From NCBI RefSeq assembly GCF_003432075.1, contig NZ_QWBU01000001.1:620001-684000 (forward strand): a stretch of 64,000 bases of DNA. Reading direction: 5' to 3'. Shown here piece by piece: positions 38,024 through 44,948 of this stretch. The DNA is from Shinella sp. WSJ-2 (lineage in GTDB: Bacteria; Pseudomonadota; Alphaproteobacteria; Rhizobiales; Rhizobiaceae). The notes beneath the pieces were generated by a model, which saw only the letters and a list, made by a program, of their open reading frames with translations, had not been told where the DNA came from and searched no databases. Made by a program: the position numbers and the translations under genes. Positions within the stretch are counted from its first letter, which is position 1. Every line of letters begins with the position of its first letter.

Positions 38024-39328
38024 GTGACCGTCACCGATTTCGCGACCCGCACCTACGATCACAATTTCCGGCTCGACCCGATCGTGCGCAGCCTGCTCGA
38101 TACGGACTTCTACAAGCTGCTGATGCTGCAGATGATCCGGCAGCTCCATCCGGATGTGAACGCGACCTTTTCCCTGATCAACCGCACGAAGAGCGTGCGG
38201 CTCGGCGAGATCATCGACGAGGGGGAACTGCGCGCCCAGCTCGACCATGCCCGCAGCCTGCGCTTCACCAAGAAGGAGCTGATCTGGCTCGCCGGGAACA
38301 GCTTTTACGGCCGGGCGCGGATGTTCGGCCCGGATTTCATCGCCTGGCTTGCCGCCTTCCAGCTGCCGGACTACGAATTGCGCAAGGCCGACGGGCAGTA
38401 TGAACTGCATTTCGACGGCCCTTGGACCCACACGATGATGTGGGAGATACCGGCGCTAACCATCATAAACGAAATGAAATCGCGTGCCGCCATGCGCGAC
38501 AAAGGCCGTTTCGCGCTCGATGTGCTCTATGCACGCGCCAAGGCACGGCTCTGGGAAAAGGTCGAGCGCCTGAGGCTCCTGCCCGATCTCGTCATCTCCG
38601 ATTTCGGCACGCGCCGCCGGCACGGTTTTTTGTGGCAGCGCTGGTGCGTAGAGGCCTTGAAGGAAGGGCTTGGCGAGCGCTTTATCGGCACGTCGAACGT
38701 GCTGCTCGCCATGGACGCCGATCTGGAAGCCATCGGCACCAATGCGCATGAACTGCCGATGGTCGCCGCCGCCCTCGCAAAGGACGACGCGTCGCTCGCC
38801 CGCGCGCCCTATCAGGTGCTGGAGGAATGGCGCCAGCACTATAACGGCAACCTGCTGATCGCCCTTCCCGACGCCTTCGGCACCACCGCCTTCCTCGCCA
38901 ACGCGCCGGACTGGGTCGCGGACTGGACCGGCTTCCGCCCGGACAGCGCGCCACCGATCGAAGGCGGCGAGCAGATCATCCGCTGGTGGCAGGAGAAGGG
39001 CCGCGACCCGCGCGAAAAACTGCTGATCTTCTCCGACGGCATGGATGTCGACACGATCGAGGAGACCTACCGGCATTTCCACGGCCGCGTGCGCATGAGC
39101 TTCGGCTGGGGCACCAACCTCACCAACGATTTCCGCGGTTGCGACCCGGATGGCGGCAACGGTCTCGATCCGATCTCGCTGGTCTGCAAGGTGACGAGCG
39201 CCAACGGCCGCCCGGCGGTCAAGCTGTCGGACAATCCGTTGAAGGCGACCGGCGATCGCCACGAAATCGAACGCTACCGCCGCGTCTTCGGCACGGATGT
39301 GCAGGAGGCGCGGCCGGTCGAGGTTTAG
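38024..39328 (+). CDS. pncB: Nicotinate phosphoribosyltransferase
   Basis: NAD-salvage enzyme of 434 residues that joins nicotinate and PRPP with ATP hydrolysis. GTG start at 38024 has AGGAG seven bases upstream. Diagnostic segments: [15 protein letters not shown] at the N-terminus, [14 protein letters not shown] with the catalytic His and phosphate site, [32 protein letters not shown]-like LLIFSDGMD and [12 protein letters not shown]. Length matches bacterial PncB. It overlaps the convergent otsB by four bases. Confidence 0.96.
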
Positions 39329-40137
39329 GACGGGGCAGCCTTGCGTGCTTCGCCGGCCGCAGCGATGCTCGACAAAGCCGAGCGGATGGCGGAAGGCGAC
39401 GAGGCTTTCGCCAGCGCGCAAGTGGCCGTCGAAAGCGAGCCCACGCGGATCGACCGCCCGCCGCGCGCATTGGCCAGGGCAAACATGGTCTCGTCCGTCA
39501 GGTCGTCGCCGATGGTGATCGGCAGGCGGCCGGTAAAGGCGGGCTCTTCGAGATAGGCCGCCACGGCATCGCCCTTGTCGGCGCGGGCCGGGCGGATTTC
39601 GAAAACCATCTTGCCGGGCTGCAGCACCCAGTCCGGCCCGGCCTCCTCGGCGAAAGACTTCATGATACCTTCCAGCGCCGTGTCGAACGCAGGTGCCAAT
39701 CGATAATGCGCGGCCACGGCCGCTCCCTTGTCTTCGATCAGCACACCCTCCATCCAAGCCGTCTGCTCGACCAGACGATGCTTCATCGAAACGAAAGCCG
39801 GCGTCGGCGCGGCAACGGTCAATTGCCCGTCGGCGCTGCGGAATTCGGCGCCATGCAGACCGGCGATCGGGAAACGGCAGGGCGCAAACAGCGCATCGGC
39901 ATAGAGCAGGCTGCGACCCGTCACCAGCGCAAGCGCGCCTTTGAGACGGTTGGCGACGGCCTGCAGATCGCTGGCGAGAGACAGCGGCACCTGGATGGCA
40001 TCCGGCGTCGCCGCGAGATCCAGAAGCGTTCCGTCGATATCGAGAAACAGCGCCCAGCGGTCTGGCTCGTCGACCAGGCGGCGCACCAGATGGCGGGTGG
40101 CGGCATCCGATGGCCGCAATTTTTCGAGCTCGTCCAT
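39325..40137 (-). CDS. otsB: Trehalose-6-phosphate phosphatase
   Basis: HAD-family phosphatase of 270 residues that makes trehalose from trehalose-6-phosphate. Motif [12 protein letters not shown] carries the nucleophile DxD; ALVTGR is motif [13 protein letters not shown] is motif IV with the metal-binding Asps. [16 protein letters not shown] lies in the usual C-terminal region. Start at 40137 gives the family length; a longer frame has no support. No otsA is adjacent. Divergent from the ROK-like gene, which begins 106 bases away. Confidence 0.9.
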
Positions 40138-40243: not shown

Positions 40244-41317
40244 ATGGGCCATGGGAAAGCACGAGGGAACACCGACAACGACGCCCCCGTCATGCACGGT
40301 GCCAACGACCTGCCAACGGTAACCGTCGCCAGCTACAATCTCGAAACGCGCGACAAGCAGGGCTTCATCGGCGACCGCGCCAACAAATCCGCTTTCCGTG
40401 ATGCAATCGAGGCCTGGCGCATACGTGTTCGCAACGGAGGTGAGGATCCACTGGGTGAGGTTGCGACAAGCTCGCTTTCCAAGAAGGAAATCGATGCGCT
40501 GCTGAAGGAAGAGGAGACGGAGGCGGCAGCACTCGTGCGCGCAGCAACTGACGATTTCGCCACAGCACTCACCGATGTGCTGGCGCGCTATCTCAAGGAG
40601 GATGCGTGGAAGGGTGTGCAACGGATCGCCGTCGGCGGCGGGTTCAGGGACAGCGCGGCCGGACTGATGGCGATCGCCCGCGCCCAGTTGCTGCTGAAGG
40701 CTGAGGGCGTCAAGGTCGCGCTGACACCGATTGCCCATCATCCGGATGAGGCAGGCCTCATCGGCGCCGTCCATCTGATCCCCTCCTGGATGCTGAAGGG
40801 GCATGACGCGATCCTGGCCGTGGATATCGGCGGCACCAACATCCGCGCCGGCGCCGTCAAGCTGAACCTCGACGACGCAAAGGACTTCGGCAAGGCCAAG
40901 GTCTGGAAATCGGAACTTTGGCGTCACGCCGACGACGAACCGAAGCGCACAGCGACCATCGAATATCTCGTGCGCATGCTCGAAACGCTGATCGGCAAGG
41001 CGAAGAAGGCCAAGCTCGCGCTCGCCCCGGTCATCGGGATCGGTTGCCCCGGCATCATCGCGTCGGATGGATCGATCGCGCGTGGCGGCCAGAACCTGCC
41101 AGGCGGCAACTGGGAAAGCACGCATTTCAACCTGCCGGAGGCGCTGCGCAAGGCAATCCCCGAGATCGACGAACAACCAACCTTTGTCATCATGCACAAC
41201 GATGCCGTGGTTCAGGGGCTCTCAGAAGTGCCGCGCATGGCCGATTGCAAGGCTTGGGCCGCCGTGACGATCGGCACGGGCCTCGGCAATGTCAGCTTCC
41301 TTAACAAGAAGGACTGA
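40244..41317 (+). CDS. ROK-like sugar-kinase protein with apparently permuted lobes
   Basis: Protein of 357 residues; AGGGAG precedes the ATG. Residues 120-180 (RIAVGGGFRDSAAG, AHHPDEAGLIGAVHL) look like the C-terminal lobe ending of a ROK kinase. They are followed at 192-348 by the N-terminal lobe: AVDIGGTNIRAG (Asp194), IGIGCPG (265-270), HND with presumed catalytic Asp320, and VTIGTGLGNV (342-350), where the protein ends. In normal ROK proteins DIGGT is near residue 10 and the GGG...AGLIGA block is last. The zinc motif CxCGxxGCxE is absent. This reads as a natural circular permutation. Glucokinase-like activity is possible but unproven. Divergent from otsB. Confidence 0.8.
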   Translation: MGHGKARGNTDNDAPVMHGANDLPTVTVASYNLETRDKQGFIGDRANKSAFRDAIEAWRIRVRNGGEDPLGEVATSSLSKKEIDALLKEEETEAAALVRAATDDFATALTDVLARYLKEDAWKGVQRIAVGGGFRDSAAGLMAIARAQLLLKAEGVKVALTPIAHHPDEAGLIGAVHLIPSWMLKGHDAILAVDIGGTNIRAGAVKLNLDDAKDFGKAKVWKSELWRHADDEPKRTATIEYLVRMLETLIGKAKKAKLALAPVIGIGCPGIIASDGSIARGGQNLPGGNWESTHFNLPEALRKAIPEIDEQPTFVIMHNDAVVQGLSEVPRMADCKAWAAVTIGTGLGNVSFLNKKD

Positions 41318-41335: not shown

Positions 41336-41359
41336 AAAAGCCGCCCGGAGGCGGCTTTT
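41336..41359. terminator. Bidirectional terminator
   Basis: AAAAGCCGCC (41336-41345) and GGCGGCTTTT (41350-41359) form a perfect ten-pair hairpin with a CGGA loop between the converging ROK-like and DUF2171 genes. Confidence 0.9.
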
Positions 41360-41363
41360 CCGT

Positions 41364-41597
41364 TCAATTGAGGGTGGACCACTCCTGGCGCACCGTATCC
41401 GCGTCCTTGTTGAGATGCACATGGGCATCGACGTGGTCGACCCAGTCCAGCGGGATGAGATGGTGCTTGCCATCTTCGGAATCGGTCCGGGTCAGCTTGA
41501 TGCGGCTTTCGCCCTCCATATGGTCGACGGTACCGACGTGGCGGCCATCGGCCGCACGGACTTCCATATGTTCGCGAATTTCATTTGCAGCGACCAT
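41364..41597 (-). CDS. DUF2171 family protein
   Basis: Small soluble protein of 77 residues. EIREHMEVRAADGRHVGTVD, then a SRIKLTRTDSEDGKHHLIP stretch and WVDHVDAHVHLNKDADTV show the PRC-barrel-like DUF2171 pattern. AAAGGAG precedes the ATG at 41597. The upstream EcfG-type promoter suggests induction in the general stress response. Function unknown. Confidence 0.85.
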   Translation of the reverse strand: MVAANEIREHMEVRAADGRHVGTVDHMEGESRIKLTRTDSEDGKHHLIPLDWVDHVDAHVHLNKDADTVRQEWSTLN

Positions 41598-41630
41598 TGT
41601 CGTTCTCCTTTGGTGAACTTGCCGCGGGAC

Positions 41631-41656
41631 AACGGCCGAAACCCACCCAAGGTTCC
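41631..41656 (-). promoter_or_regulatory. EcfG/RpoE2-type promoter of the DUF2171 gene
   Basis: On the minus strand GGAAC (41652-41656) and CGTT (41631-41634) are separated by 17 bases, an exact match to the alphaproteobacterial general-stress consensus. The DUF2171 start lies 33 bases downstream. The rest of the 321-base gap up to 41918 has no gene; it includes a short GTTCCC-TC-GGGAAC palindrome at 41741-41754. Confidence 0.75.
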
Positions 41657-41918
41657 GGAATCGCGCATTGTCGAGACATTGACGCAACCTGTGATACGTG
41701 GGCAGAAGTCGGCCAACGTCGTGCTGACGGGCAGGCAGCTGTTCCCTCGGGAACACGATGAGGCCCCTGCTTGTGAGCAGATGCCATCACGGCGGGAATG
41801 AACTCGCCACCGAACTGCGGCGGCTAGACCTCCAACGTTTATGCAGCACTTTCAACCATCTGCGCCGCGGATGGCGGGTGGTCGCTGTTGTCGCAAACAC
41901 AGATCATGGGTGAGCAAA

Positions 41919-44900
41919 ATGGCAACGAAATACGGAACGGACGCATCGGAAACGCTGACCGGCGGCCTTGACCAGGATTACATCTACGGCCTGGGCGGTC
42001 ACGACAAGATCTACGGCCTGTTCGCACGCGACAACCTGTCGGGCGGCGACGGCAACGACACGCTGAGCGGCGGCTTCCAGGACGATGCGCTCTATGGCGA
42101 CCTCGGCACGGATACGCTGTCGGGCGGTCAGGGCGACGACACCCTTTCGGGAGGCGCCGGCGCCGATACGATGTCCGGCGGTCTAGGCGATGACCGCTTC
42201 ACCGATTACGCCATCGGCGACTGGAAGGGTGACGTCGTCGACGGCGGCCTTGGCATCGACACGGTCGACATCAACCTGCAATACAACACGGCCGGCATCA
42301 AATTCACGGTGCAGGATCCGACAAAGTCGGTCAGCATGTTCGGCTTCAACGTCAAGAACATCGAGCAATACTGGATCTCGGCCACCAATTTTGCCGACAC
42401 GCTGACCGGCGGCCAATGGAACGACCGCTTCTACGGGCAGGACGGGAATGACATATTGTCCGGCAATGGCGGCAACGACACCCTCGACGGCGGCGCCGGC
42501 AAGGACACGCTCTCGGGCGGCCAGGGTGACGATTATCTTTATGGCCGCGACGGCGAAGACAAACTCGACGGCAGCTATGGTGACGATGACATGCAGGGCG
42601 GCGCCGGCAACGACACCCTCATCGGCGGCAATGGCGACGATGCGCTCTACGGCGACGACGGCAATGACGTGCTCTCCGGCGGAAACGGCAACGACTACCT
42701 CTGGGCCGGCGAAGGCAACGACACGCTGAACGGCGGCGCGGGTGAGGACTACATCATCACCGGCAGCGGCAAGAACACGGTGAATGCTGGCGATGGCAAT
42801 GACGAAATCCTCATCACCCTGGGGGATGGCGCGGACAAGATCGACGGCGGCGCCGGCATCGACGAGATCGAGATCCGCAACATCTCGGGCAACTTCACCG
42901 CCAAGGCCTCGACGGTCGTCAACACGCTCGCCGACGGCACGACCATCGTCAATGTCGAGAATTACGATCTCTACGGCACGAACGACAAGAACACGATCGT
43001 CACCCTGGGCGGCAAGGACCACATCGTTACTTATGATGGCGACGACACGGTCAAGGCTGGCGCGGGCGACGATTCCATCGACGGCGGTGCGGGCAACGAT
43101 AAGCTCTATGGCGAAGCGGGCAACGACACGATCTTCGCCGGCTCCGGCAAGGACGCGATCGACGGCGGTTCGGGCACCGACACGGTTTACATCGACGTCT
43201 ACAGCTACCAGACGATCAACTACACGTTCGACGTCGTCAACGGCAAGGGAACGCTTTCGAACGGCACCTATGCGCAGAACACCGAGATCTTCAACGTCTT
43301 CACCTCCGCCTATGGCGACGACGTCCTCAAAGCTGGCGATGCCAAGAGCGTCTGGTTCAAGTCCTACAGCGGCAATGACCAGCTCTACGGCAGCGCCGGC
43401 GACGACCTGCTCGACAGCGGTCTCGGCAATGACAAGATCGTCGCCGGCAAGGGTGACGACGTGCTGTACGATCTCGGCGGCAACAACAACCTCTCGGCCG
43501 GCGACGGTGACGACGAGGTGCATCTGTCGATCTTCGAGGCCCATGCCGGCGGGGACACGACGACGCTCGATCTGGGCGCAGGCAACGACAGCGTGGAGTT
43601 CAATGCCGGCCTAGGCTACACCTTCGGCAAGCTCAATGCCGACGGCGGCACCGGCACCGACCTCGCCGTCATCGACCGTAACGAGACCACCAAGGCCCTC
43701 ACCTTCACGTTGAGCGCCAATGCCACGCTCGTCAACGGCGATGTCACGCTGAAGAATTTCGAGCGCATCTACATCACCGGCGGCTCCGGCGCCGACAAGT
43801 TCACCGGCGGCAACCTGTCGGATTCGCTCTCGGGCAACGACGGCAACGACACGCTTGTCGGGCTTGGCGGCGACGACTGGATCTACGGCGGCAACGGCCG
43901 CGACACGCTGAAGGGCGGAGACGGTTCCGATACGATCTGGGCGGCCGGTTCAAATGGCGACACGGATGCCGACACCATCGATGCGGGCGCCGGCAACGAC
44001 TACGTCCACATCAACAGCGGCGATACCGCAATCGGCGGCGCTGGCGCGGATACGGTCTATGTCGATGTCTCCTCGCTGACGAGCGGCGTCAAGTTCACCT
44101 TCGGCACCGGCACGGTTAAGGTCAACGGCAGCACCTCCTTCTCCGGCATGGAAATGCTCGACTTCACCGGCACGAAGGGCAACGACGTCGTGACCGGCGG
44201 CACGGGCAGCGACACCCTGCGCGGCAATGCCGGCAACGACACGCTCAACGGCGGCGGTGGCAAGGACTTTCTCTATGACGACGCCGGCAACGACACCCTG
44301 CTGGGCGGCGCAGGAGACGATGCGCTCACCCGTAACGAGTTTACCGGCAAGGATGTCTTCGACGGCGGCTCCGGCGTCGATACGTTGTACTTCAACTACT
44401 ACGGCTATGATGCTTCGGTTAAACTCGACCTGCTTGACAACACAAAGAACGACGGCCTTGCCCTCGGCTTGACGGTCAAGAACATCGAACGGATCTGGGG
44501 AACGAGCCAGGACGACGACATCAGGGGCTCGAATGCCAGCGAATGGATGTACGGCGGCAGCAAGGACGATATCCTGCAGGGCCGCGGCGGCGACGATACG
44601 CTGATCGGCGGTTCCGGCGGCGATCAGCTCACGGGCGGGGCGGGTAAGGACACGTTCCAGTTCAACTATCTCACCGATGGTGGCGACCAGATCACCGACT
44701 TCAAGCGCGGCGAAGACAAAATCGCCATCGACGACACCGCCTTCGGTATCAAGGCCGGAAGTACGATTAAGCTTGTGCTCGCCGACGACGCCGTCTTCAC
44801 GACATCAGGCCCGACGTTCCTCTACGAAAAGGATACGCACCGGCTCTGGTTCGACGCCGACGGCAAGGGCGGCGACAAGGAATCCGTCCTGCTTGCGACC

Positions 44901-44948
44901 CTGGACAACGTGACGACCCTCTCCACCAGCGATTTCCTTCTGGTCTGA
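41919..44948 (+). CDS. Large RTX calcium-binding protein (1009 aa)
   Basis: Acidic, probably type-I-secreted protein made almost wholly of RTX nonapeptides (GGxGxDxLx variants such as GGNGDDALYGDDGND). They are arranged in several blocks separated by beta-sandwich-like segments (DTVDINLQYNTAGIKFTVQD, TVYIDVYSYQTINYTFDVVN, TLYFNYYGYDASVKLDLLDN). The C-terminal secretion module (FQFNYLTDGGDQITDFKRGE through TLSTSDFLLV) ends in a hydrophobic DFLLV, like the DFIL of the other RTX protein here. There is no signal peptide and no catalytic domain. Start ATG at 41919 has a weak GGGTGAG site. Likely a surface or matrix protein; no exporter genes nearby. Confidence 0.85.
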   Translation: MATKYGTDASETLTGGLDQDYIYGLGGHDKIYGLFARDNLSGGDGNDTLSGGFQDDALYGDLGTDTLSGGQGDDTLSGGAGADTMSGGLGDDRFTDYAIGDWKGDVVDGGLGIDTVDINLQYNTAGIKFTVQDPTKSVSMFGFNVKNIEQYWISATNFADTLTGGQWNDRFYGQDGNDILSGNGGNDTLDGGAGKDTLSGGQGDDYLYGRDGEDKLDGSYGDDDMQGGAGNDTLIGGNGDDALYGDDGNDVLSGGNGNDYLWAGEGNDTLNGGAGEDYIITGSGKNTVNAGDGNDEILITLGDGADKIDGGAGIDEIEIRNISGNFTAKASTVVNTLADGTTIVNVENYDLYGTNDKNTIVTLGGKDHIVTYDGDDTVKAGAGDDSIDGGAGNDKLYGEAGNDTIFAGSGKDAIDGGSGTDTVYIDVYSYQTINYTFDVVNGKGTLSNGTYAQNTEIFNVFTSAYGDDVLKAGDAKSVWFKSYSGNDQLYGSAGDDLLDSGLGNDKIVAGKGDDVLYDLGGNNNLSAGDGDDEVHLSIFEAHAGGDTTTLDLGAGNDSVEFNAGLGYTFGKLNADGGTGTDLAVIDRNETTKALTFTLSANATLVNGDVTLKNFERIYITGGSGADKFTGGNLSDSLSGNDGNDTLVGLGGDDWIYGGNGRDTLKGGDGSDTIWAAGSNGDTDADTIDAGAGNDYVHINSGDTAIGGAGADTVYVDVSSLTSGVKFTFGTGTVKVNGSTSFSGMEMLDFTGTKGNDVVTGGTGSDTLRGNAGNDTLNGGGGKDFLYDDAGNDTLLGGAGDDALTRNEFTGKDVFDGGSGVDTLYFNYYGYDASVKLDLLDNTKNDGLALGLTVKNIERIWGTSQDDDIRGSNASEWMYGGSKDDILQGRGGDDTLIGGSGGDQLTGGAGKDTFQFNYLTDGGDQITDFKRGEDKIAIDDTAFGIKAGSTIKLVLADDAVFTTSGPTFLYEKDTHRLWFDADGKGGDKESVLLATLDNVTTLSTSDFLLV

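Follow-up and report, generated by a model that had tools for sequence, protein, structure and literature searches.

A gene of Shinella sp. WSJ-2 encodes what we read, with a probability of about 0.6, as a circularly permuted actin-fold sugar kinase of the ROK type, its ancestral chain ends linked, its chain reopened within the C-lobe, and its putative activity the phosphorylation of a hexose. Natural circular permutations are regarded as uncommon. The original prediction, that a ROK-type kinase has here been circularly permuted in nature, is backed by profile alignment, a rotation scan, the predicted fold and conservation in relatives.

Gene and motif order

The gene lies at 40244..41317 (+) of the window, the 64,000-nucleotide stretch of DNA analyzed here, and by translation and family alignment it encodes 357 amino acids plus a stop. 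The translation bore out the originally proposed placement of motifs, with the C-lobe block ahead of the N-lobe block: V130-GGG133 and DEAGLIGA (residues 168–175) precede DIGGTNIRAG (from D194), CPG (268–270), HND (318–320) and IGTGLG (343–348), with the chain ending 9 residues after IGTGLG and the CxCGxxGCxE motif absent. Across the permuted family, N-lobe motifs likewise do not precede C-lobe motifs. The host genome (5.14 Mb, 29 contigs) holds a single copy of the gene, matching at 100% and without an internal stop, and the closest relatives by name are from Shinella.

All segments of the gene are on the forward strand. The AlphaFold model, the profile alignment and matches of family pieces delimit the main part of the C-lobe (residues 18–162, 40295..40729), which holds His18 (the equivalent of the ExGH histidine), GFIGD (the remodeled zinc segment) and V130-GGG (the adenosine motif). 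Residues 163–180 (40730..40783; model and profile alignment) include the old C-terminal helix 167–178 with DEAGLIGA and are followed, between the aligned blocks, by a new linker from the old C-terminus to the old N-terminus (residues 181–190, 40784..40813). The N-lobe (residues 191–332, 40814..41239) contains DIGGTNIR (phosphate 1), CPG, QNLPGGNW and HND with the predicted catalytic Asp320, and the GTGLG beta-hairpin (phosphate 2; residues 337–354, 41252..41305), assigned by DSSP as C-lobe strands 1–2, is now the C-terminus.

Directly 3′ of the gene, a GC-rich hairpin followed by four T (41340..41359, +) was picked out by eye as a weak candidate terminator; a pattern scan did not report it. 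A short convergent frame lies downstream of the kinase gene (41364-41756, −), part of which (41367-41615) gave no NCBIfam match at E ≤ 1e-6. A 1035-codon open frame at 41841-44948 (+) is rich in GGxGxDxL-type repeats and presumably encodes a secreted RTX-like calcium-binding protein.

Active-site conservation and predicted activity

To follow residues through the family, we used a profile of 60 members, drawn from a neighborhood survey of 68 regions (about 4–15 kb each, several duplicates included) after setting aside five duplicates and three regions without a usable gene call. Its 59 distinct rows show no variation at D194, G196, G197, G131–G133, N319 or D320. GTGLG occurs in 58 of them, the last row being gapped there, and His18 and Asp44 are each found in 57, His18 being present in 58 of the 60 members. 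Position 198 of the DxGxT motif is Thr in 45 rows and Ser in 14. The family retains the DxGxT nucleotide motif and the catalytic Asp of the (N)D loop; of the ExGH sugar motif it keeps the His, with the Glu position (15) mostly Pro, Leu, Ile or Ser. DIGGT, GTGLG and GGG, all conserved, correspond by alignment to three motifs named in the relevant part of PMC1079889. The missing zinc motif of the original prediction holds throughout, with CxCGxxGCx(E/D) found in 0 of 60 members, but its absence does not set the family apart from accepted ROK kinases: in the passages of PMC5458393 on F. nucleatum and L. monocytogenes NanK (FnNanK, 5nck; LmNanK, 4htl), the zinc site is described as absent, and the zinc-site cysteines of B. 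subtilis glucokinase are reported as needed.

Best placed among the alternatives, although we consider it rather unlikely, is a permuted fold that has become a pseudokinase, serving as a sugar- or nucleotide-binding sensor (like ROK repressors without the DNA-binding domain) or in protein contacts. Such a role would agree with the loss of the ExGH Glu and the zinc site, with the large distance from canonical ROKs (in the tree, the stem leading to the permuted rows is 2.65 changes per column long) and with most regions being without one pathway partner, but the catalytic Asp, the Mg-binding Asp and the ATP motifs are invariant or nearly so in the 59 distinct rows, and no DNA-binding family appears among the Pfam matches at E ≤ 1, which speaks against this reading. 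D194 and D320 match by motif D6 and D105 of P. shigelloides NagK, which are given in the consulted part of PMC10031466 as essential for metal binding and base catalysis and whose mutation brings activity below detection, so their strict conservation favors catalysis and, therefore, an active kinase. Prediction gives a folded protein, and kinase activity has probably been kept.

For the active permuted kinase, alignment suggests that ATP-Mg would be held by DIGGT (194–198), GTGLG (344–348) and GGG (131–133). Judging from aligned ROK kinases with solved structures, Asp320 would be the catalytic base activating a sugar hydroxyl, and Asn319, His18 and perhaps Asp44 would contact the sugar; Asp44 sits one residue from the zinc-motif Glu in the alignment, and our guess is that it may replace a sugar-contacting acid. 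The lobes would close on ATP-Mg and sugar, and the most likely function would be ATP-dependent phosphorylation of a hexose or a hexose-containing sugar.

Profile evidence for the swapped order

The Pfam ROK profile (PF00480) scores the protein at 43 bits, above its gathering cut-off of 22.9 (whole-protein E 5.3e-11), aligning residues 191–354 with profile positions 2–141. Residues 1–185 alone align with positions 191–291 of 294, at E 0.0074 and 16.3 bits, below the same cut-off. The NCBIfam NanK model places residues 78–178 at its C-terminal end (194–285 of 288), with a whole-protein E of 2.2e-6 and a score far below the curated cut-off. All 18 family members searched match Pfam ROK at E ≤ 0.01, and so do 12 of the 18 family pieces covering residues 18–185 at E ≤ 0.1 (best 7.9e-4); outside ROK, the same 18 pieces matched six other families, 1–3 pieces each, at E 0.0071 or worse.

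We then compared the family profile, at every sixth rotation, with a canonical profile of the 28 ROK proteins that passed out of 35 loci from the host and related genomes. Residues 76–180 correspond to canonical positions 206–303 and residues 191–348 to positions 9–141, both scoring far above shuffles. The score was 52.3 in native order and peaked at 70.1 for rotation starts 181–187, against 15.5 ± 1.9 for shuffled columns (15 trials); when only the first half was shuffled and the profile rotated, 0 of 200 trials reached 70.1 (mean 52.5, maximum 63.9). As a control, seven canonical ROKs compared with the other 21 peaked at rotation 1 (250.3). The rotation signal needs family profiles, because only 6 of the 60 members, when rotated singly and compared with the canonical profile, gain in score (median 0, range −2.4 to 18.2); the single-sequence rotation test is uninformative or mildly against permutation. 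Compared with F. nucleatum NanK (5nck), the rotated family profile aligned in three collinear pieces with a whole-chain E of 1.6e-4, versus 0.0011 for the unrotated profile (profiles of 8 and 18 sequences, no piece significant alone).

Predicted fold

AlphaFold, given an 18-sequence alignment, returned a model with pLDDT 87.3 and pTM 0.86, in which no run of at least three residues other than 1–14 has pLDDT < 50 and the sugar-side loop 281–290 is of low confidence (mean pLDDT 56). The order of C-lobe strands and helices in the model is complete only with the C-terminal hairpin: after rotation, DSSP gives hairpin 337–343/347–354, strand 26–31, helices, strand 127–131, helix 138–153, strand 159–162 and helix 167–178. 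This predicted order is compatible with bbb-a-b-a-b-a, the core of ribonuclease-H-like kinases as set out in part of PMC1079889.

A Foldseek search with the whole model gave 110 matches at E ≤ 0.001. Among the best 50 of these 110, tandem-duplicated human hexokinases at ranks 1, 3, 4 and 9 aligned over 396–426 columns (rmsd about 30), and ROK kinases in the top 20 aligned over 169–178 columns. Long hexokinase matches are expected of a permuted query, because a tandem target offers a C-lobe and then an N-lobe; since single-unit exopolyphosphatases also align long (188–320 columns, rmsd 7–9), which the pseudo-symmetric lobes allow, we take this pattern as supporting evidence only. Folded alone, residues 18–185 reached pLDDT 76.3, and Foldseek ranked sugar kinases 1–8 and a ROK protein tenth, with no match at E ≤ 0.001 for this half-model. 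Residues 1–190 are thus predicted to form the second lobe, though the half-model's Foldseek matches are weak.

These data also bear on a non-permuted alternative, in which an unrelated N-terminal domain precedes a truncated ROK N-lobe and VGGG and AGLIGA occur by chance. The first half scores 39.2 by profile against a shuffled maximum of 20.7 (100 shuffles) and does so at the expected place, and on this score and place we ruled out an unrelated domain; we hold the alternative to be very improbable, even with a first half that is weak in Pfam (E 0.0074) and in Foldseek (none at E ≤ 0.001) and with 54 of the 60 single members showing no gain from rotation. Also set against it are the 12 of 18 pieces that match ROK, the window's own at the end of the ROK profile, the NanK model match, the sugar kinases filling all of half-model ranks 1–8, and the AlphaFold prediction, which, as far as it goes, has the first half building the second actin-like lobe.

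Position of the new chain ends

The rotated alignment that underlies the permuted reading is continuous across the old ends, pairing GTGLGN...HGAxxLP with GTGCGGG...GEWGHxPLP. In it, GTGLGNVSFLNKKD and then, past the first 17 residues, HGANDLPTV align with GTGCGGGLVVDGRL...GEWGHxPLPWP of canonical ROKs, the ExGH histidine and glutamate are matched by His18 and Pro15, respectively, and KQGFIGDRANKSAF falls on RRGCLETWVSGPAL, the zinc segment of canonical ROKs. The original prediction had the new termini at the lobe junction, which was not borne out: hairpin strands 337–343 and 347–354 put the break within the C-lobe. The new termini are inside that lobe, in the loop between the phosphate-2 GTGLG hairpin and the ExGH/zinc segment, because the GTGLG hairpin opens the C-lobe in ROKs and is C-terminal here, with residues ~18–162 making up the rest.

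The final helix of ROK structures is packed against the N-lobe (from parts of PMC2742894 and PMC5458393); with both old ends in one lobe, the short linker of residues 181–190 is therefore plausible. Its sequence is conserved, not invariant, with W182 in 50 and H187 in 41 of the 59 distinct rows. The ends of an ancestral ROK gene would have been joined by this linker and the gene then reopened inside the C-lobe, the likely route being tandem duplication followed by trimming. The whole bilobal fold is predicted still to be made, with the N-lobe continuous over residues ~163–332 and the C-lobe built from residues ~18–162 and the C-terminal hairpin 337–354; the zinc site would have been lost and the loop there rebuilt.

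Distribution, selection and origin of the permuted family

Homologs with the same lobe order, which the original prediction proposed seeking, were found, and near-full-length relatives are all permuted. Relatives at 17 loci in named genomes are full length, 50–85% identical and in the same permuted order. In overlapping genome sets, with a limited number of candidates scored in each genome, near-full-length matches in permuted order occur in at least 7 of 101 genomes of the family, at least 27 of 199 of the order, at least 12 of 289 of the class (with one further genome weak only) and at least 22 of 398 of the phylum (at 24 places, with 25 more genomes showing weak matches only, over the N-lobe), as well as in at least 2 of 229 genomes from the class of one member that belongs to another class (a third being weak). 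Plasmids contribute 206 matching records, 204 of them over at least 80% of the query; the rows listed are 52–82% identical and cover at least 96% of the query, save three that cover 87–90% and a single short one (H90, 35% identity over 21% of the query). Many plasmid copies are annotated "ROK family protein" and others have no annotation there. The entries so named on Rhizobium, Sinorhizobium and Shinella plasmids (e.g., WP_011654489.1) are the same permuted family, with no difference in kind, and the product names seen are silent on order. The permuted order is kept across many soil and plant-associated bacteria of many genera, and the gene is under purifying selection, with dN/dS of 0.13–0.39 between the window copy and its 17 relatives in the 16 computable pairs (dS > 1 in several).

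That misassembly, a frameshift or decay merely makes the gene look permuted is a negligible prospect, for all that a few copies elsewhere have a stop inside the match (G122, G475, G312): read-through artifact, pseudogene and misassembly are ruled out by the independent genomes of relatives, given the same order in 17 relatives at 50–85% identity, the 204 of 206 plasmid records matching over at least 80% of the query, the dN/dS range (16 pairs) and a host copy without internal stops.

Searching 398 genomes with a rotated profile, at up to 5 candidates scored per genome, so that a rare one could be missed, we met no long canonical-order match and no unpermuted ortholog; in 22 genomes the family members were matched as two abutting pieces whose order was swapped, and matches in the remaining 24 genomes were weak (best 27.4 bits). 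In a tree, a branch supported at 100/100 has all 23 permuted rows given to one side of it, under a long-branch warning. One old permutation event fits this split and the shared break point. With permuted and canonical rows on opposite sides of the branch, and with the same warning, the tree points to no particular source ROK subfamily.

Several fragmentary copies were also seen. A 97-codon frame at G468:C151:167216-167320 (minus strand), ~3.6 kb from a full copy, matches only family residues 12–46 and is a possible remnant or split-off N-terminal arm. On a Bradyrhizobium barranii plasmid, L078:3001-3252 matches residues 283–356 at 35% identity and is possibly a decayed copy; part of it overlaps a response regulator annotated on the opposite strand. 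With stops inside the matches of permuted copies L024 (in G122), G475 and G312, some lineages may be losing the gene.

Genomic context

Divergent from the kinase gene is otsB, encoding trehalose-phosphatase (39325..40137, −; NCBIfam T6PP, 137.4 bits against a cut-off of 68.05; Pfam Trehalose_PPase), with 106 bases between the start codons, that of otsB being our choice. Across the surveyed regions, an otsB homolog lies near the permuted gene in 22 of 68, divergently in 21 with 106–346 bases between the matched stretches; the other 46 have none within the stretch examined. Shinella accounts for 14 of the 22, window included, leaving 8 of 54 outside that genus, including plasmids of Rhizobium and S. 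mexicanum. In 3 of 68 regions the next gene downstream on the same strand encodes a HAD phosphatase (the two scanned pass the NCBIfam HAD-IIB cut-off), and in S. meliloti an NAGGN peptidase takes its place. We rejected a link to NAGGN, which would concern only two S. meliloti regions (2 of 68), and a shared operon partner, since besides otsB there is only the HAD phosphatase in 3 of 68 and the other scanned neighbors differ.

The host genome also encodes OtsA, a PF02685 glucokinase and five other ROK matches, and the separate glucokinase led us to set aside a dedicated glucokinase role. The role in glucose or trehalose metabolism first suggested from the otsB neighbor thus divides: divergent otsB in 21 of 68 regions favors a trehalose or sugar-phosphate connection, and the 46 regions without otsB and the separate PF02685 enzyme leave a glucose kinase unsupported. 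From gene order, a trehalose, sugar-phosphate or osmolyte link is plausible, and the kinase would work together with a sugar phosphatase of the HAD type (OtsB in the largest neighborhood group). We regard as unlikely, taken jointly, a fuller account in which one ancient permutation gave rise to a separate active kinase lineage in Hyphomicrobiales and some other Pseudomonadota, opening of the chain at the zinc/ExGH loop removed the structural zinc and put the sugar-contacting His18 on a free N-terminal arm closing over the sugar, and, in osmolyte (trehalose) metabolism, the enzyme acts as a counterweight to an OtsB-type phosphatase.

Relation to known kinases

NanK-type ROK kinases (5nck; L. 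monocytogenes 4htl; human GNE kinase domain 2yhw) share with the permuted family, by alignment, DxGxT, the catalytic Asp after Asn, GTGxG, GGG and AGxxGA, and, by prediction, the two-lobed fold. They differ in having the canonical N-to-C order, whereas the permuted chain starts and stops within the C-lobe and has its old termini joined, and in the ExGH Glu, which is present in 5nck, 4htl and GNE, is replaced by His in E. coli NanK (as given in part of PMC5458393) and is not conserved in the permuted family. The hexokinase family (PF00349; human hexokinase 2) shares the actin fold and phosphate-1 motif, with 13 of 18 permuted members matching PF00349 at E ≤ 0.01, but differs in order and size, and the window protein scores below the Pfam cut-off. 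Related genomes also encode canonical ROKs that carry a GEWGHxPLPW segment and that we take to be fructokinase-like; their GEWGHxPLP aligns with the family's HGAxxLP near the new N-terminus, but they differ in their canonical order, in the zinc cysteines of many and in showing no close sequence relationship.

In the open literature (titles and abstract starts, subscription papers falling mostly outside this scope), we found no permuted ROK or actin-fold sugar kinase. Locus-tag leads for the copies in S. meliloti and R. leguminosarum ended at other genes (SupA, gmcA) and yielded no experimental data. As far as these searches reach, this is a permuted lineage of the ROK kind that is new as a variant. 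An actin-fold kinase lobe reopened near the active site is a direct test of the fold's dependence on chain order, and the permuted form coincides with loss of the zinc site. Databases call the permuted proteins merely "ROK family protein", a name that on plasmids rests on a match mainly to half a domain and leaves order unmentioned. Three genomes of the window's genus (L134, L135, L137) encode 687–704-residue proteins with a canonical ROK DxGGS motif near residue 390–410, in which the ROK part is fused to another domain, at a guess perhaps an epimerase.
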